Positions 40,942 to 55,372 of a DNA stretch of 64,000 bases are shown one piece after another. Made by a program: the position numbers and the translations under genes. How positions within the stretch are numbered: the first letter of the stretch is position 1; each line of letters opens with the position of its first letter. Where the stretch lies: assembly GCF_002252635.1 (NCBI RefSeq), contig NZ_NQKX01000010.1, positions 62,001 to 126,000 on the forward strand, written 5' to 3'. The notes below the pieces were generated by a model. That model was not told where the DNA came from, did no database searches, and worked only from the letters and a program-made list of their open reading frames with translations. This stretch comes from Synechococcus sp. MW101C3 (GTDB lineage Bacteria > Cyanobacteriota > Cyanobacteriia > PCC-6307 > Cyanobiaceae).

Positions 40942-41120
40942 AGACATAACCTTCCGCAGCAGGTTACACCAGTGAGACAGTGAAACCGGGCCACACTTTC
41001 CATCCCTTGGCACCACTTCCGCACGGCAGGATCAGGTGCCAAACCCCCATGAGTTCAGCGTGTCGCAAGCTTTACGGAATTGCGATGTCATCGTTGTGTC
41101 AGCACCTGCTTCTGCGCAAG

Positions 41121-41147
41121 AAAAAACCCCCGGGTATACCCGGGGGT
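41121..41147 (-). terminator. Intrinsic terminator of psaA-psaB
   Basis: On the minus strand ACCCCCGGG-TATA-CCCGGGGGT gives a perfect 9-bp stem with a tetraloop, followed by TTTTTT. It lies 40 bp beyond the psaB stop and also separates the convergent RND gene. Confidence 0.9.
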
Positions 41148-41187
41148 GAAGGAGGATCGTCCCTCGAAGATCAGGCTGGCCGCAGGG

Positions 41188-43401
41188 TCAGCCGAATTTG
41201 CCGGAGGTGGATGCGATCAAGAAGGCTGCGTATGTGAGCACGTAGCCAACGGAGAAGTGCGCCAGACCGACCACACGGGCCTGAACGATCGAGAGAGCGA
41301 CGGGCTTGTCACGCCAGCCCACCAGGTTGGCGAGCGGGGTGCGCTGGTGTGCCCAGACGATGGTTTCGATCAGCTCCTGCCAGTAACCGCGCCAGGAGAT
41401 CAGGAACATGAAACCGGTGGCCCACACCAGGTGACCGAAGAGGAACATCCAGGACCAGACGGCCAGGTTGTTCGATCCGAACGGGTTGTACCCGTTGATC
41501 AGCTGGGAGCTGTTGAGCCAGAGGTAGTCGCGGAACCAGCCCATCAGATAGGTGCTGGATTCGTTGAACTGAGCCACGTTGCCCTGCCAGATGGCCAGGT
41601 GCTTCCAGTGCCAGTAGAAGGTGACCCAACCCACCGTGTTCAGAGCCCAGAACACCGACAGGTAGAAGGCGTCCCAAGCAGAGATGTCACAGGTGCCGCC
41701 ACGGCCGGGGCCGTCGCAGGGGAAGGAGTAGCCGAAGTCCTTTTTATCGGGCATCAGCTTGGAACCACGGGCGTCCAGAGCACCTTTGACCAGGATCAAG
41801 GTGGTGGTGTGCAGGCCAAGCGCGATGGCGTGGTGCACAAGGAAGTCGCCAGGGCCGATGGGCAGGAACACATCGGTGTTGCCGTTGATGGCATCGAGCC
41901 AGAAGTGATCACCAGGGATGTTGGCCGAAGCCAGGCTGGCGGCACTGCTGGGGTTCGAGAGCAGCACATCCATTCCGTACATGGCTTTGCCGGAGGCAGC
42001 CTGCACGAACTGAGCAAACACGGGCTCCACCAGGATCTGCTTCTCGGGGGTTCCGAACGCCACGACCACGTCGTTGTGGACGTAGAGGCCGAGGGTGTGG
42101 AAACCGAGGAACAGGGAGACCCAGCTGAGGTGGCTGATCAGAGCTTCCTTGTGATCAAGCATCCGAGCCAGAACATTGTTCTTGTTGGCTTCGGGGTCGT
42201 AATCACGAATGAAGAAGATCGCACCGTGAGCGAAGGCACCGACCATCAGGAAGATGGCGATGTACTGGTGGTGGGTATAGAGAGCAGCCTGAGTCGTGTA
42301 GTCCTTGGCGATGAACGCATAGGACGGCATGGCATACATGTGCTGCGCCACCAGGCTCGTGACCACACCCAGCGAAGCCAGGGCCAGGCCGAGCTGGAAG
42401 TGGAGCGAGTTGTTGACGGTGTCGTAGAGGCCCTTGTGCCCAGCACCGAGGTCACCAGGGGTGCCCTTGGGGGGGTTGTGAGCATCAAGGATCTCGCGGA
42501 TCGAGTGACCGATTCCGAAGTTGGTCCGGTACATGTGACCGGCGATCACGAAGATGCAGCCGATCGCCAGATGGTGATGGGCAATGTCCGTGAGCCAGAG
42601 CGCCTCAGTCTGGGGGTGGAAGCCACCCAGGAAGGTGAGGATCGCGGTGCCGGATCCCTCAGCAGTACCGAACACCTGGTTGACGGTGTCGGGGTTCTCG
42701 GCATACACACCCCAGTTGCCGGTGAAGAACGGAGCAAGACCGGCGGGGTGGGGCAGCACGTTGAGGAAGTTGTCCCAGCCGACGTGCTGACCGCGGGCTT
42801 CGGGAATCGCCACGTGGACCAGGTGACCGGTCCAGGCGATGGAGCTGAAGCCGAACAGAACAGCCAGGTGGTGGTTCAGACGGGATTCAGCGTTCTTGAA
42901 CCAGGCCAGGGAAGGCCGGAACTTGGGCTGAAGGTGAAGCCAGCCAGCGAACAGGGCCCAGGCCGACAGGATCATCATGAAGATGGAACCCTGATAAAGC
43001 TCGGCGTTGGTCTTCATTCCGATCGTGTACCACCAGTGGTACAGGCCGGAATAAGCGATGTTCACCGGAGAGGTGGCACCCGCCTGAGTGAAGGCGGTGA
43101 TGGCCCCTTGGCCGAAGTGAGGATCCCAGATCGCGTGAGCGATGGGACGGACATGCAGCGGATCGGCGACCCACTGCTCGAAGTTGCCCTGCCAGGCGAT
43201 ATGGAACAGGTTGCCGGAAACCCAGAGGCCAATGATGGCCAGATGACCGAAGTGGGTGGAGAAGAGCTTCTGGTAAAGCTTCTCCTCGGTCATCCCGTCA
43301 TGGCTCTCGAAGTCGTGAGCCGTGGCGATGCCGTACCAGATACGGCGGGTCGTCGGGTCCTGTGCCAGACCCTGGCTGAACGAAGGAAATTTCGTTGCCA
43401 T
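41188..43401 (-). CDS. psaB: Photosystem I P700 apoprotein A2
   Basis: A 737-residue core subunit with eleven transmembrane helices, binding half of the P700 special pair, A0, A1 and, with PsaA, the Fx 4Fe-4S cluster. It starts [20 protein letters not shown]. The Fx cysteine loop [18 protein letters not shown] is intact. It is transcribed from psaA with a 21-bp spacer. The coding strand is strongly biased in codon use, as expected for one of the most expressed proteins of the cell. Confidence 0.99.
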
Positions 43402-43422
43402 TGGGAAAGGTCAGGTGTGAGG

Positions 43423-45726
43423 TCAGCCGACCGCGATGAGTCGGGACAGGAAGAAGGCCCAGGTGGTAGCGATACCGCCCAGAAGGTAGTGAGCAACGCC
43501 CACGGCACGACCCTGAGTGATGCTCAGAGCACGTGGCTGGATGGCCGGAGCCACTTTCAGCTTGTTGTGAGCCCAGACGATGGACTCAATCAGCTCTTGC
43601 CAGTAGCCGCGGCCGCTGAACAGGAACATCAGGCTGAAAGCCCAGACGAAGTGAGCACCCAGGAACATCAGGCCATAAGCACTGGAAGAGGTGCCGTAGC
43701 TGTTGATGACCTGAGCGGCCTGCGCCCAGAGGAAATCGCGCAACCAGCCATTGATGGTGATGGCGCTCTGAGCGAAGTTGCCATTGGTGATGTGCTGAAC
43801 GCTGCCGTCCGCATTCACCGTGCCCCACACATCGCTCTGCATCTTCCAGCTGAAGTGGAAGATCACGATCGAGATGGAGTTGTACATCCAGAAGAGGCCG
43901 AGGAACACATGGTCCCAAGCCGAAACCTGGCAGGTACCGCCACGGCCGGGGCCGTCGCAGGGGAAGCGGAAGCCCAGGTTCGCCTTATCGGGGATGAGCC
44001 TGGAGCTGCGGCTGTAAAGCACACCCTTCAGCAGGATCAGCACGGTGACGTGGATCGTGAAGGCGTGGATGTGGTGGACCATGAAGTCGGCCGTTCCCAG
44101 GGGGATCGGGCCGGCAGCCACCTTGCCACCCACAGCAACAACAGCGCCATTGAACACTTCGCTCACACCGGCCAGCGCGTTGGGCGCAGTGGTACCGGCT
44201 GCAGCGGCGTGCAGGCCCTGAATCCATTGAGCGAAGATGGGCTTCAGCTGAATGGCGGTGTCACTGAACATGTCCTGGGGACGGCCCAGGGCACGCATGG
44301 TGTCGTTGTGGATATAGAGGCCGAAGCTGTGGAAGCCAAGCCAGATGCACACCCAGTTGAGGTGGCTGATCAGGGCATCACGAGCTTTCAGAACCCGGTC
44401 GAGCACGTTATCGATGTGCTGGGCAGGGTCGTAGTCACGGATCAGGGCAATGGCCGCGTGAGCGCCAGCACCCACCACCAGGAATCCGCCGATCCACATG
44501 TGATGCGTGAACAGCGAGAGCTGGGTGGCGTAGTCGATGCCGATGTAGGGATAGGGGGGCATCGAATACATGTGGTGCGCCACGATGATCGTGAGCGAAC
44601 CGAACAGCGCGAGGTTGACCGCCAACTGGGCATGCCAGGAGGTGGTCATGAACTCGAACAGGCCGTCGTGACCCTTGGGTGCGGGGAACAGCAGGGGATC
44701 GCCCTTCTGACCCTCAAGGATCTCCTTGATGCTGTGGCCGATGCCCCAGTTGGTGCGGTACTGGTGGCCGGCAACGATGAACAGGACAGCGATCGCCAGG
44801 TGGTGATGCGCGATGTCGGTCATCCAGAGGCTGCCCGTGACGGGATTCAACCCACCTTTGAAGGTGAGGAAATCGCTGTAGGCGGCCCAGTTGCCCGTGA
44901 AGAAGGCGGAAAGGCCCGCTCCGAAACCGGGGAACAGCTGAGCGATCAGGTCCTGGTTGAGGAATTCGTGGGGGAGGGGAATGTCCGCCACCGAGGCGAT
45001 GGTCTTGCCATTGAGCACCAGCGGCTTGCCGGCATCCATGGCATCCATCAGGGCCGTGGTCGGCAGGGACACGTGCAGGAGGTGACCCGTCCAGGACAGG
45101 GACCCCAGCCCGAGCAGACCGGCCAGATGGTGGTTGAGCATCGACTCAACGTTCTGGAACCACTCCAGCTTGGGGGCTGCCTTGTGGTAGTGGAAGACAC
45201 CGGCGTTGAGCATCAGACCGGCCATCACCAGGGCGCCGATTGCCGTGCAGAGCAACTGGAACTCACTGGTGAAACCCCAGGCTCTCCACACGTGGAAAAG
45301 ACCTGAGGTGATCTGGATGCCGTGGAAGCCGGCGCCCACATCGGCGTTGAGAATTTCCTGGCCGAAAATGGGCCAGACCACCTGAGCACTCGGTTTGACG
45401 TGCAGGGGGTCGGCCAGCCAGCCGGTGTAGTTGGAGAAGCGGGCACCGTGATAGAAGGCGCCGCTCAGCCAGATGAAGATGACGGCCAGATGGCCGAAGT
45501 GAGCGCTGAAGATCTTCCGGGAGACCTCTTCAAGGTCGCTCGTGTGGCTGTCGAAATCGTGAGCGTTGGCGTGGAGGTTCCAAACCCAGGTGGTGGTTTT
45601 GGGACCTTTGGCGAGGGTGCGATCGAAGTGCCCGGGCTTACCGAGAACATCGAAGTCGACGGGAACGGGGTTCCGGTCAACCATGGCCTTCGCCGTTTTC
45701 CCACGCTCTGGTGGGCTGATGGTCAT
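43423..45726 (-). CDS. psaA: Photosystem I P700 apoprotein A1
   Basis: A 767-residue PSI core protein. It starts [25 protein letters not shown], and the Fx loop [23 protein letters not shown] provides two cluster cysteines. Abundant His residues in the helices are chlorophyll ligands (for example [17 protein letters not shown]). It heads the psaA-psaB operon on the minus strand. An open frame extends upstream of ATG 45726, but conservation starts here. The 5' leader is long, and a candidate -10 is about 205 bp upstream. Confidence 0.99.
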
Positions 45727-45929
45727 CGAGACGTTCCTCGAGGGACGGGGTCGAGGTGGAGGTGGAGGTCCACCGCTCCGGCCGGGTGCAGGCACCTGGC
45801 CGGCGGGCCGAACAGCACCGCGGACCGGAATCCGCCATGCCGTTGACTCCAGAGGGCAGGGGCGTGGCGAAAGCCAAAACCCGTTGCCACGACTGGGGCA
45901 AGGGCCCCGATGAGGGGACCGCTGGCGAG

Positions 45930-45935
45930 AGTATA
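45930..45935 (-). promoter_or_regulatory. Candidate psaA -10 box
   Basis: TATACT on the minus strand matches five of six -10 consensus bases and gives a leader of roughly 195-200 nt. No proper -35 is seen 17 bp upstream (GCAAAC). Confidence 0.4.
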
Positions 45936-46060
45936 GGGGCGAGCTTCTGGCCGTTTGCCGAGGAAGTAACAAAGGTTCAATCCCCTGGCTCTCCTGTCTG
46001 GGACTGGGCTCTCCCGCCCGATTCTTGTCATTGAAATGCCGGGGATAAGCCCCCATTTGT

Positions 46061-46079
46061 TATCCGGCAATTCCGGATA
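46061..46079. promoter_or_regulatory. Interrupted palindrome, candidate operator
   Basis: TATCCGG-CAATT-CCGGATA has perfect 7-bp arms with a 5-bp spacer, a size typical of a dimeric regulator site. It lies between divergent psaA and the gene at 46177. No regulator can be named. Confidence 0.4.
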
Positions 46080-46176
46080 TTGGAGCGTTGATTCAAGTCC
46101 TCAGGGCGGCATCGATTCTGCGCTCACCAATGGGCCAGCAGAATGTCCAGGCCGTCGTCAGGGCAGGAGCAACGAG

Positions 46177-47703
46177 ATGGTCATGGCGAGCCTGCCTGCC
46201 CGGAAGCTGCCGCACTTGCGGGGTTCACGCGCCTTGGGGCGGACCATCAGCGCCGGCCTGCTGTGCCTCACCGTGTTGCTCAGCGGAGGCTGGGGCTGGA
46301 GAAACGCCAGCTCACCTCCGCCTACCGCTGCACCGGCTCCGCTTGCCAGCGGCACCGTGCGCGAAGTCGCGCCGCCCCGCCCGACTGAGCAACTCAAGGA
46401 GGTGCTCAGCGCCCATCGCCCGCAGCTGACGATCGTTGCGCCGGCGCCGGACACCGTTCTTCCCGCCGACCCCTGGACCCTGGAGCTGCGTGTGGCTGAC
46501 TGGCCGCTGGCGGGGACCAACCCAGGCGCTCCCGGCCCCCATCTGGTGGTGCAGCGCGACCAGGAGACACCGATCCGGGTCGGTGCGACGCCTGCCAGCC
46601 GCAGCAATGAGGACTCCGCCGATCCGCGCACAGTGAAGGTGCCGATGGAGCCGCTCACCCCGGGCAGCCATCGGATCAGCGTCTACGCCGCCTACCCCTG
46701 GGGTGAAGCGGTGAAAGCGCCCGGCGCCAGCACCCAGATCCGGTTGCACCGCGCCGCCGCCAACCCCCTGGGGGTGCCACAACCCGCCAGCCCCCAGCTG
46801 ATTCCGGCCATTCCTTTCGACCTGATCCAGGCAGAACCGGTGCTGATCGACTGGCTGCTGTTCGATGCCCCCCTGCAACACCTGCGCGACGGCGACGACA
46901 GCTGGCGGTTGCGGATCACCCTCAACGGCGACAGCTTCCTGGTGGACCGTCAGACCCCGATCTGGCTGAAGGGACTGACCAGCGGGGAAAACGCCATCCA
47001 GCTGGAACTGCTTGATGGGAGGGGCGACCCGCTCAATGCACCCTTCAACTCCCTGGTGACGGCGGTGACACTCACGGCTGGGGCTCCATCGCGCTGGCCC
47101 TCCACTCCCCTCAATGACGCTGAGCTGAAGCGGGCCCTGCTGGGCGGAGCGGTCGGAACCTCCCCAGCAGAGCCGGCGCCGCCCAATCCGCCGGCGCCAC
47201 CAGGGAAGCCATTTCCACTGGGGCAGTCATCTGCTTCTGGGCAACCATCGGCTCCTGGGCCGCAGGATCCGGGCGACAGCTCGGGCGCCAGCGCCAGAAA
47301 TGTGGAGGAGGAAGCAGAGGCGGAGGCGGAGGAGCCGGAACCTGCCACCCTCTCCGCTCCGTCTGCCACTGCTGCGCTCTCCGCTGCCGGCCTGGCAGAC
47401 GGGGAGCAGGTGGGGGCAGCATCCATCGCCGAGAAGGACGCCCCCCCACCTGAACCTGAGCTCGAGAGCCAACCTGAACGTCAGGCCAAAGCCGAAATCG
47501 AAACTCAGCTCAAAACGGGTAACGAACCTGGGCCCGAAATCGAACCAGAACACGAGCCGGAAGACCCGCCAGCTCCTAGCGATGGGATTGTCTCCATCCC
47601 TGGTGCTCCTAGCGAAAGAGATGCCGACGACGGACCGACAGCCGGCCCGTCCGCCGATGCGGGCGAATCGCCGGCGATCGGGCGTGCCAGGTTCGGCGCA
47701 TGA
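46177..47703 (+). CDS. Secreted protein with Pro- and Glu-rich C-terminal half, function unknown
   Basis: A 508-residue protein I do not recognise. ATG 46177 is supported by an AGGAG 7 bp upstream. A basic N terminus and a hydrophobic segment near residues 23-41 suggest a signal peptide or anchor. Residues about 60-320 look globular and beta-rich, with phrases such as PQLTIVAPAPDTVLPADPWTLELRVADWPLAG and PLTPGSHRISVYAAYPWGE that recall Ig-like carbohydrate- or surface-exposed domains. The last ~190 residues are low complexity, rich in Pro, Glu, Ala and Ser. Its stop overlaps the start of the cobJ fusion gene (ATGA), so translation is coupled, although no functional link is obvious. Confidence 0.7.
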   Translation: MVMASLPARKLPHLRGSRALGRTISAGLLCLTVLLSGGWGWRNASSPPPTAAPAPLASGTVREVAPPRPTEQLKEVLSAHRPQLTIVAPAPDTVLPADPWTLELRVADWPLAGTNPGAPGPHLVVQRDQETPIRVGATPASRSNEDSADPRTVKVPMEPLTPGSHRISVYAAYPWGEAVKAPGASTQIRLHRAAANPLGVPQPASPQLIPAIPFDLIQAEPVLIDWLLFDAPLQHLRDGDDSWRLRITLNGDSFLVDRQTPIWLKGLTSGENAIQLELLDGRGDPLNAPFNSLVTAVTLTAGAPSRWPSTPLNDAELKRALLGGAVGTSPAEPAPPNPPAPPGKPFPLGQSSASGQPSAPGPQDPGDSSGASARNVEEEAEAEAEEPEPATLSAPSATAALSAAGLADGEQVGAASIAEKDAPPPEPELESQPERQAKAEIETQLKTGNEPGPEIEPEHEPEDPPAPSDGIVSIPGAPSERDADDGPTAGPSADAGESPAIGRARFGA

Positions 47704-49490
47704 ACGACCCTACGCCTGACGCCTTGCCCTTGCCCTGCCGGGGACTCAGCCTCAGTCCTGCCGGCCAGCCCCTGCTTCAGCGGCTGCACCAGGCCGGGCT
47801 GGTGCAGGACATCGCCAGCCCCGAGGAAGCCGGCGGCACCTATCTGTCGCGGGAGTGGGGCAACAGCCGGTCCTTCGTGGCTGTGGGTGCCTGCGGAGCC
47901 ATCACCCGGCTGATCGCACCACTGCTGCAGGGCAAAAGCCAGGATCCGGCGGTGGTGGTGGTGGATCCGGCCGGACGCTTCGCCATCCCGCTGCTGGGCG
48001 GCCATGGCGCCGGGGCAGAGCGTCTGAGCCAGCAGGTGGCGGCCCTGCTGGGCGGCCAGGCCGTGCTGACAGGCGCCAGCAGCGGCAGCGGCCGCCTTGC
48101 CCTCGATGGCTTCGGCACCGCGTGGGGATGGCGGCGCGGCAGCGGTGACTGGGACGGCCTGATGCAGGCAGCGGCCAGGGGGGAGCAGCCATTGGTGCAG
48201 CAGACCAGTGGCTCCCCCCTCTGGCGCGAGCTTGAAGCGACCCAGCCGCTGAGCGGCGTGCCCGACCCGGCAGCTCCTGTGCTGGTGATCAGCGATCAAC
48301 TGGGCATGGGCTGTCGCTGGCACCCTCCCAGCCTTTGGTTGGGGGTGGGCTGCGAGCGCGGCACCAGCTTCACCCTGCTGGAGCGGGCGGTGCTGGCAGC
48401 GCTGCAGGAGGCTGGGTTGGCGCCGGAGGCCGTCGCCGGCCTGTGCAGCGCCGACCGCAAAGGGGATGAGCCGGCACTGCTGGCGCTGGCCGCTGAGCGC
48501 CAGTGGCCGCTGCGGCTGTTCAGTGCCGCCGAGCTCGCCGTTGTGCCGGTGCCGACCCCTTCGGCGGCCGTGGCGCGGGAGATGGGCACGGCCAGCGTGG
48601 CGGAGGCGGCAGCGCTGCTGGCCGCCGGACCCGGGGGCTGCCTGCGCCAGGCCAAACGCATCGAACGCTGCCGCAGCGACGAACGCGGAGCCGCCACGGT
48701 GGCGGTCGCGGCCGCCGCGGAGCAGTGGGCGCCGCAACGGGGCCGGCTGCATCTGATCGGCAGCGGGCCTGGCGAGCTGGCCCTGCTCACTCCCGATGCC
48801 CGTGCCGCACTGGCGGCGAGCACGGTCTGGGTGGGCTACGGCCTGTACCTCGACCTGCTGGAACCACTGCGTCGGCCTGATCAGCTGCGCTGCGACGGCC
48901 AGCTCACCCTGGAGCGGGAACGGTGCCGCCAGGCGCTGGAGCTAGCGGCGCAAGGCCTGACGGTGGCACTGGTGTCATCGGGCGACAGTGGCATCTATGG
49001 CATGGCCGGGCTGGCGCTGGAGCTGTGGCTGGCCCTGCCGGCCGAGGCCCGCCCCGGCTTCACGGTGCATCCGGGCATTTCCGCGCTGCAGCTGGCGGCC
49101 GCCCGCGCCGGAGCCCCCTTGATGCACGATTTCTGCACCATCAGCCTGAGCGATCGGCTCACCCCATGGGAAACGATCGAAACCCGCCTGCGCGGGGCAG
49201 CTGCGGGGGATTTCGTGGTGGCCCTCTACAACCCGCGTTCGCGCGGACGCGACTGGCAACTGGCCCGGGCCTGCGCCCTGCTGCTCGAACAGCGGGGCGG
49301 CGACACGCCGGTGGCCCTGGCCCGGCAGCTGGGGCGGCAGGACGAGCACGTGAGCCTGCACCGGCTGGCGGACCTGCCGGTGGCGGAGGTGGACATGCTC
49401 ACGCTGGTGCTGATCGGCAACAGCACCACACGGATTCAGGACGGCCGCATGGTGACCCCCCGCGGTTACCCCGGGGCTGATCTGGCCTGA
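47700..49490 (+). CDS. cobJ: CbiG-CobJ fusion: cobalt-precorrin-5A hydrolase-like + precorrin-3B C17-methyltransferase
   Basis: A 596-residue cobalamin-pathway fusion. The N-terminal ~330 residues match CbiG: VGACGAITRLIAPLL, GGHGAGAERLSQQVAALLG, LWLGVGCERGTS and EMGTASVAEAAALLAAG. The C-terminal ~250 residues are a tetrapyrrole methylase of the CobJ/CbiH type: LIGSGPGELALLTPDARAAL, VGYGLYLDLL, SSGDSGIYGMAGLALE, HPGISALQLAAARAGAPLMHDF and VALYNPRSRGRDWQL. CobJ adds the C-17 methyl with ring contraction; CbiG opens the resulting lactone in the anaerobic route. It starts inside the stop of the preceding gene. Such fusions are known in cyanobacteria. Confidence 0.93.
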   Translation: MNDPTPDALPLPCRGLSLSPAGQPLLQRLHQAGLVQDIASPEEAGGTYLSREWGNSRSFVAVGACGAITRLIAPLLQGKSQDPAVVVVDPAGRFAIPLLGGHGAGAERLSQQVAALLGGQAVLTGASSGSGRLALDGFGTAWGWRRGSGDWDGLMQAAARGEQPLVQQTSGSPLWRELEATQPLSGVPDPAAPVLVISDQLGMGCRWHPPSLWLGVGCERGTSFTLLERAVLAALQEAGLAPEAVAGLCSADRKGDEPALLALAAERQWPLRLFSAAELAVVPVPTPSAAVAREMGTASVAEAAALLAAGPGGCLRQAKRIERCRSDERGAATVAVAAAAEQWAPQRGRLHLIGSGPGELALLTPDARAALAASTVWVGYGLYLDLLEPLRRPDQLRCDGQLTLERERCRQALELAAQGLTVALVSSGDSGIYGMAGLALELWLALPAEARPGFTVHPGISALQLAAARAGAPLMHDFCTISLSDRLTPWETIETRLRGAAAGDFVVALYNPRSRGRDWQLARACALLLEQRGGDTPVALARQLGRQDEHVSLHRLADLPVAEVDMLTLVLIGNSTTRIQDGRMVTPRGYPGADLA

Positions 49491-50650: not shown

Positions 50651-53600
50651 CTAGGCGGGCACCGTGACGCGGCCCTCAGCCAGACCGACGGTGGCCAGCT
50701 CACTGGGGGGAACGAGCACCTTGAAGCGGGGACGCCACTGAGGCCAGTTGGCAAGCACCTCGGCGGCCCGGCGGCTGCCGGTGAGCTCGAGATGGGTCTC
50801 CAGCAATGGCTTGAGCAGTTGCTCCTGCTCGGGGGTGTCCAGCGGAACCATCGAGACGATCTCCGGGTTGAGCCGGGCGGCGAGTCCGTCGTGCTCGTCG
50901 AGCAGGAACGCCACGCCACCGGTCATCCCGGCGGCCACGTTGCGGCCGGTGCTGCCGAGAATCACCACCACGCCTCCGGTCATGTATTCGCAGGCGTGAT
51001 CGCCGCTGCCTTCGACCACAGCGACCGCGCCGCTGTTGCGTACGGCGAAGCGCTCACCCGCCCGGCCCAGCGCAAACAACTCGCCGCCGGTGGCGCCGTA
51101 GAGGCAGGTGTTGCCCAGGATCACCTGGGCGCCGGGATCGGCCGCGCCGGCAGGGGGCACCACCACGAGCCGCCCGCCGTTGATGCCCTTGCCGACGTAA
51201 TCGTTGGCCTCGCCCACGAGGGTGAGCTGCATGCCGCGCAACAGGAAGGCACCAAAGCTTTGGCCGGCCCCGCCCTCAAAGCGGAGATCGAGCAGACCGT
51301 TGAACCCCTTGTTGCCGTGAAGCGCGGCGATTTCGCCTGCAATCCGCGCTCCCACACTGCGGTCGGTGGTGAGGATCCGCAGCTGGCGCTGGATCTTGCC
51401 ATGGCCTTCGATCGCCGCCAGCACTTCAGCGTCCTCCAAGAGGCTGTCTTCGAGGATGGGGCCATTGCCGTGGGCGGACGCCTCGTGCTGCAGCCAGGAA
51501 CGGTCGCCGGCGTGGGGAACCGTATCCAGCAGGCAGGAGAGATCCACCGAGCTGGTCTTGACCAGCTGCACCTCCCGGCGCTGGAGCAGGTCGTTGCGGC
51601 CGATCAGGTCCTCCAGCCGCGCCACGCCCAGCACGCTGAGCAACTGGCGAACTTCCTCGGCCACGAAGGCGAAGAAGTTCACCACGTGTTCGGGGATGCC
51701 GGTGAAGCGCTTGCGCAGCGCCTCCTTCTGGCTGGCCACACCCACGGGGCAATTGTTGGTGTGGCAGACGCGGGCCATGATGCAGCCCTCGGCAATCATG
51801 GCCACCGAGCCGAAGCCGAATTCCTCGGCACCGAGCAGGGCGGCCATCACCACGTCCCAACCGGTCTTGAGGCCGCCGTCTGCACGCAGCAGCACCCGGT
51901 CGCGCAGGCCGTTGGCCAGCAGGCTGCGGTGCACTTCCGACAGACCCAGCTCCCAGGGGCTGCCGGCGTGCTTGATCGAACTGAGCGGCGAGGCACCTGT
52001 GCCTCCGTCGTGGCCGGAGATCTGGATCACATCGGCATTGGCCTTGGCCACACCGGCGGCGATCGTGCCGATGCCGATCTCAGACACGAGCTTCACAGAC
52101 ACCTTCGCGGCCGGATGGACCTGGTGAAGGTCGTGGATCAGCTGGGCCAGATCCTCGATGGAATAGATGTCGTGGTGCGGCGGCGGTGAGATCAGGGCGA
52201 CGCCGGGTTTGCTGTTACGCAGCCAGGCGATGTAAGCATCCACCTTGGGGCCGGGCAGTTGGCCGCCTTCGCCGGGCTTGGCTCCCTGGGCCACCTTGAT
52301 CTCCAGCTGGGTGCCGCTGCGCAGATACTCCGGCGTGACGCCGAAGCGGCCGGAAGCGATCTGCTTGATGGCGGAGCAGGCTGTGTCGCCGTTGCGCAGG
52401 CCACCGATGGTGGGGAGTGTGGGGGAATGGCCGCCGGCGTCGACGTCGTGGAGCGGGTGATAGCGGGCGGGATCCTCGCCCCCTTCGCCGCTGTTGCTCT
52501 TGCCGCCGATGCGGTTCATCGCCACCGCCAGCACTTCGTGGGCCTCACGCGAGAGGGCCCCGAGGCTCATGCCACCGGTGCAGAAACGGGAGCAGATGCT
52601 TTCGGCGCTCTCCACCTGATCAAGGGGCAGCGGCTGGGGGGCGGGGGTGAGCTCAAGCAGGTCGCGCAGGGAGGTGACCGGACGGTTCTCCAGCAGGGTG
52701 CGGTAGGTGGAGAAGTGGTCGTAGCCGGGGCCCGCTGCCACGGCTGCATGGAGGGCCTTGGCCATCTCCGGGCTGTTGAGATGGAATTCGCCGCCTGTGC
52801 GGTATTGAACGAAGCCCATGAACTCCAGCTTGGTGCGATGGAGTTCGGGGAAGGCCTTGGCGTGGAAGGTGAGGGTTTCGCTGGCGAGATCCGCCAGGGT
52901 GAGGCCCGCCACCCGGCTGGTGGTGCCTCGGAATGCCAGCTCGATCAGGTCGGCGCCGATGCCGATCGCCTCAAAGATCTGAGCCCCGTGATAGCTGGCC
53001 AGCATCGAGATGCCGATCTTGGAGAGGATCTTGCGAAGGCCGGCTTCCAGGGCCTGGCGCACATTCGCCTGGGCCGCAGCGGCATCAATGGCGGGCAGCC
53101 GACCCCGCTCGATCAGAGAGATGGTCTTGGGCAGCTGCAGCCAGTGGCGCGTGGTTTCCCAGGTGAGCCAGGGGCACACAGCACTGGCACCGAAGCCGAT
53201 CAGGCAGGCCAGGTGATGGGTACTCCAGCACTGAGCGGTGTCCACCACCAGAGAGCAATGCAGCCGCAGGCCCAGACCCAGCAGGTGGTGGTGCACCGCA
53301 CCCACGGCCAGCAGAGGCGGGATATAGGAGGTGGTGGGCGAAAGACCAGATCCGCAGCGGTCGGAGAGCACCAGGATTTCGGCCTGGTTTCGCACGGCCT
53401 GCTCCGCCTCCTGGCAGAGCCTCTGCACCGCGTCGCCGAGGCCGGCCGGCCCCGCTTCCACCGGCAACAGGGTGGAGAGGGTGATGGTGGCCAGGCCCTG
53501 CTCCGGCAGTGCCTTGAGCTCCGCCTCATTGAGCAGCGGCGACTGCAGATGCAGCACCGAGGCAGAACCGGGCTCAGGCCGCAGCGGTGAGCCCCGGCGG

Positions 53601-55246
53601 CCGAGGTGCATCTCCAGGCTCATCACCAACTCTTCCCGCAGGGGATCGATCGGCGGGTTGGTGACCTGGGCGAAGCGTTGCTTGAAATAGTCGTAAAGGA
53701 GGTGGGGCTTGGAGGACAGCACCGCCAGGGGGATGTCGTCGCCCATGCAATACGTGGGTTCCTTGCCCTGGCCAGCCATGTCCTCGATCACCAGATCGAA
53801 GTCTTCGGCGGTGAAGCCGAAAGCGGTCTGGTGCTGCAGCAGGTCGAGGGCCCCCAGGCTCGTCTCGGTGATCCAGGGCCGGCTGTCGAGCGCGCGGCGG
53901 TGCTCTAGCAGCCAGGCGCCGTAGGGATGGCGGGCCGCCACTTCCTCCTTCACCTGCCAGTTGCGCAACAGGCGGCCTTGCTCGAGATCGACGGCGAGCA
54001 TCTGACCGGGGCCGAGACGGCCCTTTTCGATGATGCGGCTTTCGTCGATCTCCAGGACGCCGGTTTCCGATCCCATCGCCACCAGGCCGTCGCTGGTGAT
54101 GCAGTAGCGGGCGGGGCGCAGACCGTTGCGATCGAGCGTGGCACCCACGCTGCGGCCATCGCTGAACACCAGCAGGGCCGGGCCATCCCAGGGTTCCTGC
54201 ACACAGGCGGAATAGTCGTAGAAGGCCTGGATCGCTGGCCGTGATTCCAGCTCCGGTTGCTGCCGGAACGCCTCGGGCACGAGCGTGAGCAGGCTGTCGG
54301 TGATCGGCCGACCGCTGCGCACCATGAGCTCGAGCATGGCGTCGAGGTTGGCGGAATCGCTGAAGGCGGCGTTGACCACCGGCTTGAGGTCGTTGGCGGC
54401 GTCGCCCCAGATCGCATCGAGGTGCGACTGGGCAGCGTGAGCCCAGTTGATGTTGCCCAGCAGGGTGTTGATCTCACCGTTGTGACCCAGCAGGCGCATC
54501 GGCTGCGCCAGGGGCCAGCGCGGCAACGTGTTGGTGCTGAAGCGGCGGTGGTACACGGCGAAGCTCACCGCGAAGCGGGGGTCGCGCAGGTCGGCGTAGA
54601 ACGCCGGCAGCACCTCGGAGCGCACCATGCCCTTGTAGACGACCGTGCGGCTGCTGAAGGAGGCGAAGTAGAGATCGCTGGGGCCGGGGCCCCAGGCTTC
54701 CCTCACCAGATCCCCGACGCGGCGGCGGCAACGGAAGAGCAGGGCTTCGAGCGCATCGCCAGCCACCTCGCCTTCCACGAGCCACTGCTCGATTGCGGGG
54801 GCGGTCTGGCGGGCCAGTGGGCCGAGCACCTCAGGCGCTACAGGCACCTCACGCCAGCCGATGCTGCGCAGGCCCAGGCCGGCGGCCGCCTGCTCACAGA
54901 AGGCGCGTGCCACAGCTCGGCGCTCCGCCTCGGCGGGCAGGAACAGCATCGCCAGACCGCGGGGCCGACCCTGTTCGCTGCGGGCGGCGGGCCAGACCGC
55001 TTCCAGGTAGGGCCAGGGGATGCCACAGAGGATGCCGGCGCCATCCCCGGAATCGCCGTCGCCACCGCAGCCACCGCGGTGCTCCATGCAGTGGAGACCA
55101 TGCAGGGCCTGGGCGAGCAGAGCATGGCTCGCCTCGCCGCTGAGCTGGGCCAGAAAGCCAACGCCGCAGGCATCGCGCTCGCCCGCCACGGCCTCAGGCG
55201 CCGGACTGTCGCAATGGGGCCAGACGGGACGGGAGAAGTGAGGCAT
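50651..55246 (-). CDS. gltB: Glutamate synthase large subunit, probably ferredoxin-dependent
   Basis: A 1531-residue glutamate synthase making two glutamates from glutamine and 2-oxoglutarate. After a propeptide of about 26 residues, Cys27 (ACGVGF) would be the N-terminal glutaminase nucleophile. Conserved EHRGGCGGDGDSGDGAG and the FMN/central domains follow, with CTGGMSLGALSREAHEVLA and GGKSNSGEGGEDPARY. The 3Fe-4S cysteines are in VCHTNNCPVGVAS, and a GXXGXXXG-rich C-terminal domain ends the protein. No gltD lies beside it, and cyanobacterial homologues of this form use ferredoxin, so gltS/glsF is an equally good name. ATG 55246 (MPHFSRPVWP) matches the family start. Confidence 0.96.
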   Translation of the reverse strand: MPHFSRPVWPHCDSPAPEAVAGERDACGVGFLAQLSGEASHALLAQALHGLHCMEHRGGCGGDGDSGDGAGILCGIPWPYLEAVWPAARSEQGRPRGLAMLFLPAEAERRAVARAFCEQAAAGLGLRSIGWREVPVAPEVLGPLARQTAPAIEQWLVEGEVAGDALEALLFRCRRRVGDLVREAWGPGPSDLYFASFSSRTVVYKGMVRSEVLPAFYADLRDPRFAVSFAVYHRRFSTNTLPRWPLAQPMRLLGHNGEINTLLGNINWAHAAQSHLDAIWGDAANDLKPVVNAAFSDSANLDAMLELMVRSGRPITDSLLTLVPEAFRQQPELESRPAIQAFYDYSACVQEPWDGPALLVFSDGRSVGATLDRNGLRPARYCITSDGLVAMGSETGVLEIDESRIIEKGRLGPGQMLAVDLEQGRLLRNWQVKEEVAARHPYGAWLLEHRRALDSRPWITETSLGALDLLQHQTAFGFTAEDFDLVIEDMAGQGKEPTYCMGDDIPLAVLSSKPHLLYDYFKQRFAQVTNPPIDPLREELVMSLEMHLGRRGSPLRPEPGSASVLHLQSPLLNEAELKALPEQGLATITLSTLLPVEAGPAGLGDAVQRLCQEAEQAVRNQAEILVLSDRCGSGLSPTTSYIPPLLAVGAVHHHLLGLGLRLHCSLVVDTAQCWSTHHLACLIGFGASAVCPWLTWETTRHWLQLPKTISLIERGRLPAIDAAAAQANVRQALEAGLRKILSKIGISMLASYHGAQIFEAIGIGADLIELAFRGTTSRVAGLTLADLASETLTFHAKAFPELHRTKLEFMGFVQYRTGGEFHLNSPEMAKALHAAVAAGPGYDHFSTYRTLLENRPVTSLRDLLELTPAPQPLPLDQVESAESICSRFCTGGMSLGALSREAHEVLAVAMNRIGGKSNSGEGGEDPARYHPLHDVDAGGHSPTLPTIGGLRNGDTACSAIKQIASGRFGVTPEYLRSGTQLEIKVAQGAKPGEGGQLPGPKVDAYIAWLRNSKPGVALISPPPHHDIYSIEDLAQLIHDLHQVHPAAKVSVKLVSEIGIGTIAAGVAKANADVIQISGHDGGTGASPLSSIKHAGSPWELGLSEVHRSLLANGLRDRVLLRADGGLKTGWDVVMAALLGAEEFGFGSVAMIAEGCIMARVCHTNNCPVGVASQKEALRKRFTGIPEHVVNFFAFVAEEVRQLLSVLGVARLEDLIGRNDLLQRREVQLVKTSSVDLSCLLDTVPHAGDRSWLQHEASAHGNGPILEDSLLEDAEVLAAIEGHGKIQRQLRILTTDRSVGARIAGEIAALHGNKGFNGLLDLRFEGGAGQSFGAFLLRGMQLTLVGEANDYVGKGINGGRLVVVPPAGAADPGAQVILGNTCLYGATGGELFALGRAGERFAVRNSGAVAVVEGSGDHACEYMTGGVVVILGSTGRNVAAGMTGGVAFLLDEHDGLAARLNPEIVSMVPLDTPEQEQLLKPLLETHLELTGSRRAAEVLANWPQWRPRFKVLVPPSELATVGLAEGRVTVPA

Positions 55247-55372
55247 AACCCAGGAGAGACCTGCGGTGACCGGCGGCAAACCCGAACTGCGGGATTGACC
55301 GCTCCTTGAGGAAGGGGAACTCTAGAGACAGGCCCACGGGGTTAGCGTTCACCACCAACGGAAGCTGGCCTG

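Follow-up and report, generated by a model that had tools for sequence, protein, structure and literature searches.

We propose that the protein described here, X, works like photosystem I assembly factors such as Ycf3, Ycf4, RubA and Vipp1, which are likewise conserved, lie outside the solved photosystem I complex and are tied to PsaA/PsaB, although the tie of X is one of gene order alone. To our knowledge none of these four is an exported tandem-Ig protein, and we know of no precedent for a tandem-Ig protein serving a photosystem. Among named domain families, Big_7 (PF17957), of the Ig/FN3-like superfold, has the arrangement shared by both predicted domains of X and gave sub-threshold matches in 11 of 30 homologous cores; it differs in that X of our window is unmatched and in that the scores shown for two relatives (22.2 and 20.6 bits) lie under its cut-off of 24.1. 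DUF6130 (PF19625; weak matches in 9/30 cores, shown scores 21.6 and 19.6, cut-off 23.7) and DUF4399 (PF14347; 7/30 cores, shown score 15.8, cut-off 28) also have no match in the window protein, and a DUF4399 search of the window's genome, which returned nothing, was uninformative because its controls returned nothing either. The passages of PMC3893515 that treat the psaA promoter of Synechocystis name no divergent gene.

The window, by which we mean the whole 64,000 nt stretch analysed from Synechococcus sp. MW101C3, carries the coding sequence of X at 46177..47703 on the forward strand; its translation gives the 508 residues plus stop already reported in the first-pass annotation, with no internal stop codons. 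A longer in-frame start at 46036 would yield 555 aa, and 46177 is preferred because a GGAG-type site precedes it and because the sister genome retains a start at that place. X is no chance reading frame, since it has relatives in 42 of 60 genomes searched and since its core shows a dN/dS of 0.28 against the sister genome: the gene is genuine and conserved, and its core is under purifying selection.

Residues 1-45 (46177..46311, +) form the signal-like N terminus that the first-pass annotation had noticed; residues 19-35 are the strongest hydrophobic stretch among the first 80-odd residues, and inspection of the N terminus found no lipobox. The N termini of 30 homologues also look signal-like, with a strict lipobox in 9; X is probably exported, to the thylakoid lumen or the periplasm. 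At the other end of the protein, residues 324-508 (47146..47700, +) make up the low-complexity Pro/Ala/Glu-rich tail that had been reported, 185 residues of which 18% are Pro, 18% Ala and 13.5% Glu, with a net charge of -26. This tail is weakly constrained (dN/dS 0.79 in the comparison that gave 0.28 for the core), and in 30 homologues the stretch that comes after the core may be missing altogether (0 residues) or be as long as 306 residues, a pattern that suggests a flexible spacer whose exact sequence would be of little importance. The low-complexity part seems to have switched sides in one homologue (L028, genome G043), which has ~330 residues ahead of the core and hardly any tail.

Between these ends lies a conserved core, residues 60-323 (46354..47145, +), delimited by alignment, structural models and fold comparisons and containing 17 invariant positions in an alignment of 30 sequences. 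The structure prediction and fold search that the first-pass annotation had proposed for residues 60-320 were run on this slightly longer segment, and its beta-rich body is predicted with high confidence (AlphaFold2, mean pLDDT 90.8, pTM 0.89) to form two Ig/FN3-like domains at approximately residues 80-197 and 196-301. When the whole core was compared with VIA-align, the best match fell on domain 1 (Z 8.5, 87 residues, 2.4 A). Domain 2 modelled separately (pLDDT 85.7) matches FN3 domains, the best with Z 8.9 over 87 residues at 2.4 A, and a Foldseek search with it gave nothing at E 0.001 or better. Z-scores of 8.5 and 8.9 against Ig/FN3-type chains are consistent with an Ig/FN3 fold, a beta-sandwich of the seven-stranded type, and can reflect a common arrangement rather than a common function.

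Sequence searches placed this core in no named family of Pfam or NCBIfam, and the first-pass annotation could assign none either; a strong match to a known family, one of the two outcomes that it would have taken as refuting, did not turn up. Neither collection gave a match to the window protein at an E value of 1 or below, and Pfam matches of single cores from 30 relatives, among them BiPBP_C beside Big_7, are all weak, the scores shown being under the cut-offs; the family is nameless in both collections. A profile of the 30 cores met nothing better than E 0.6 among PDB chains. It is therefore improbable that X is one of the known photosystem subunits, and by this search it is not a photosystem I subunit in the sense of a chain present in the solved structures. 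A literature search found no publication on X, a weak negative because several of the locus tags queried were guesses.

The first-pass annotation had named absence from all relatives as the other outcome that would count against it; this is not what was found, as 42 of 60 relatives carry X, always as a single copy, and among the 23 genomes that belong to other families of the class 21 have it. Of 386 genomes sampled from the phylum, a draw that takes in other classes and of which 204 misses are not itemised, the profile of 30 cores recovered X in 162; it also recovered X in all 33 genomes of one order. The contigs of named genomes yielded 394 relatives, and the best 80 of these were retained. 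Viral contigs, searched with the window protein alone, contained no relative, and plasmids, searched by tblastn with the relative from genome G078, gave one partial match, to a Haloferax gene annotated as a PQQ-dependent sugar dehydrogenase. X is thus the picocyanobacterial member of an unnamed, deep-rooted family found in most cyanobacterial families sampled.

X lies between two sets of genes in the window. Facing it on the reverse strand is psaA (43423..45726; Pfam PsaA_PsaB, start set by the peptide MTISPPE), encoding a photosystem I core protein, with psaB downstream of it (41188..43401, -; an open reading frame matched as PsaB in relatives). The start of psaA at 45726 leaves a divergent region of 450 bp (45727..46176) before that of X, so that X does face psaA as first described. 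On the other side, the end of X, with its TGA at 47701-47703, shares 4 nt with the reading frame of a CbiG-CobJ fusion of cobalamin biosynthesis (47700..49490, +; CbiG_N, CbiG_C and TP_methylase domains, above the NCBIfam CobJ cut-off), whose ATG at 47700 forms with it the sequence ATGA (47700..47703), again as first described. ARAGORN also reports a tRNA-Ala (ggc) within psaB (41554-41643, -), probably a false positive, and very long open reading frames at 41080-45306 (+), opposite psaA/psaB, and at 50651-55279 (-), opposite several forward-strand frames, are probably by-products of high G+C.

The junction with CbiG-CobJ invites a reading in which X is a cobalamin-linked exported protein, binding for example a corrinoid or cobalt. 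In the window's own family, a CobJ start that is in frame and shares 4 nt with the end of X can be placed at 69 of 81 measurable loci (of 95; the 14 dropped had X running off the contig end in 7 cases, no start found in 6 and CobJ missing in a short flank in 1), a count that means such a start exists, since our script chose the start nearest that position. X stands directly before CbiG-CobJ in this family, so translation of the latter is probably coupled to it. Outside the family, CobJ occurs in the flank of only 1 of 61 X loci, 7.4 kb away, and at eight X-less sites fetched from within the family CobJ stays in place. The coupling is thus a secondary arrangement that characterises the family to which the window belongs, and we reject cobalamin as the general partner of X. 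A Bacteroides B12-binding lipoprotein (7biz) does appear among the Foldseek matches, but as just one of many Ig-like ones and with a TM-score of 0.23 to the model, and we set it aside as an identity for X; a general cobalamin role is disfavoured and, in our judgement, improbable.

For the 61 X loci that lie outside the window's family, we clustered the surrounding ORFs of at least 100 aa. The first-pass annotation had suggested that constant company with cobalamin or photosystem I genes would be informative if conserved; the neighbourhood analysis it called for bears out the second half and not the first. psaA/psaB are the dominant neighbour, near X in 46/61 of these loci, from 26 families and always on the opposite strand, while the second-commonest neighbour cluster reaches 13/61 loci in 6 families and all others 10 loci or fewer. 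Two loci (L126, L146) have too short a flank on the psaA side, which leaves 46 of 59 testable loci paired and 13 unpaired; reading 12 of the unpaired loci revealed no shared partner of X. At one locus away from psaA (L156), a single gene separates X from frames resembling psbC and psbD. Within the window's family psaA is divergent upstream of X at 90 of 95 loci (including L094, where the PsaA match starts at residue 30), the remaining five having under 750 bp of flank; these loci come partly from the same genomes and are not all independent. The same arrangement holds in all 21 family members among the 60-genome search, and in L202, the one genome of its order that carries X. The constant company of X is photosystem I, not cobalamin, and it is this persistent pairing that is unusual, the Ig-like fold itself being ordinary.

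The history of the pairing was followed on a tree of 65 cores, on which the paired/unpaired label needs 8 changes; shuffled labels need 11.3 on average and get down to this number in 2 of 500 shuffles. Well-supported branches force 3 or more of the changes. Breaks or gains of the pairing thus appear to have been repeated, with the label partly clustered, and the tree gives no order of states. Pairwise distances of X and PsaA correlate at 0.80 over 60 loci and at 0.44 once these are limited to the 45 from other families, which we take as shared descent rather than co-evolution. Candidate HLR1-like motifs between psaA and X have on average 3.4 mismatches at best, against 4.0 in shuffled sequence, and 2 or fewer mismatches at 19 loci, 12 of them from one family.

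Photosystem I can occur in genomes that lack X. Rechecking 20 X-less genomes with the profile, E values as high as 1 being admitted, gave nothing in 18 and chance-level matches in two, and PsaA is present at 1e-100 in 15 of the 20, so X is not required for photosystem I. In several small-genome picocyanobacteria without X, psaA faces CobJ directly. (A fragment match to X at L198, E 0.009, falls inside psaB and is a matter of chance.) In the order of G048, which is Gloeobacter-like, X is missing from 9/9 genomes and PsaA present in 9/9; an empty search result means little by itself, but the same profile matches 33/33 genomes elsewhere. In the order of G051, 7 of 8 genomes are without X, PsaA being present in G051, the one tested. 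The PsaB of G048 carries a C-terminal OmpA domain above the Pfam cut-off (L191, 7464-9998), which we take to be a Gloeobacter feature and hence to suggest Gloeobacter, although the long psaB frame is missing in some members of the order. Gloeobacter has no thylakoids.

A role tied to phycobilisomes, with X lost along with them, might be read into these absences, as the PBS_linker_poly matches number no more than one in several of the picocyanobacteria without X. G003, G009, G016, G022 and G023, however, keep X with one such match each, and G010, G048 and G051 are without X despite 10, 15 and 7. The presence of X does not track these counts, and we regard the phycobilisome link as hardly credible.

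The domain pair is also not confined to photosystem I organisms: G078, which lies outside the cyanobacterial class, has a lipoprotein-like relative of 242 aa that is tail-less, the only one among 18 genomes of its class, and no PsaA match at 1e-100. This gene lies at L201 7686-8414, next to a DoxX-like reading frame. The G078 relative, together with the strict lipobox in 9/30 members and the sub-threshold matches to Big_7 and BiPBP_C, would suit a lipoprotein or other envelope protein of general function that takes no direct part in photosystem I, and whose pairing with psaA persists because a long psaA control region is costly to break or because both genes answer to common light regulation. 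The divergent spacing is indeed long, the distance from the psaA start to the start of the X core having a median of 590 bp over 89 family loci and 700 bp over 45 others. Yet at the eight X-less family sites psaA works with 293-870 bp separating it from CobJ, so the region needs no X; X is still conserved where it has left psaA; and no other neighbour of X is kept to a comparable degree. We consider this explanation nearly as likely as the one we prefer.

Our preferred reading, to which we assign a probability of roughly 0.4 and which is drawn from gene order alone, is that X may be an exported, non-essential accessory factor of photosystem I. X and psaAB would be expressed jointly from their shared upstream region, and X would be exported to the lumen or periplasm side, there to support photosystem I, for example as a tandem-Ig adaptor holding or protecting the lumen-facing side of PsaA/PsaB during photosystem I assembly, repair or membrane sorting, with its Pro/Ala/Glu tail as the flexible spacer. 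Beside the pairing with psaA, we count in its favour the purifying selection on the core, the signal-like N termini, the lack of a matching solved chain and the absence of X from the Gloeobacter-like order. The 13 loci with X away from psaA, the 15 X-less genomes with PsaA, the tail-less relative in G078 and the distance correlation of just 0.44 outside the family all count against a photosystem I role. A more elaborate version, which we think unlikely, would have X act in photosystem I biogenesis on the lumen side. X would then have arrived with thylakoids, which would explain why the lineage without thylakoids lacks it; most later lineages would have kept it fixed beside psaA, and only a few, streamlined or early, would have lost it again.

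That a gene of uncharacterised role should stand beside a photosystem core gene in 26 sampled families while its other neighbours turn over is unusual. Lineages that possess PsaA without X, including close relatives in which the site is cleanly empty, provide natural controls, and if the link is functional, X would be a candidate, open to testing, for a part in photosystem I assembly or upkeep that has so far gone unstudied.
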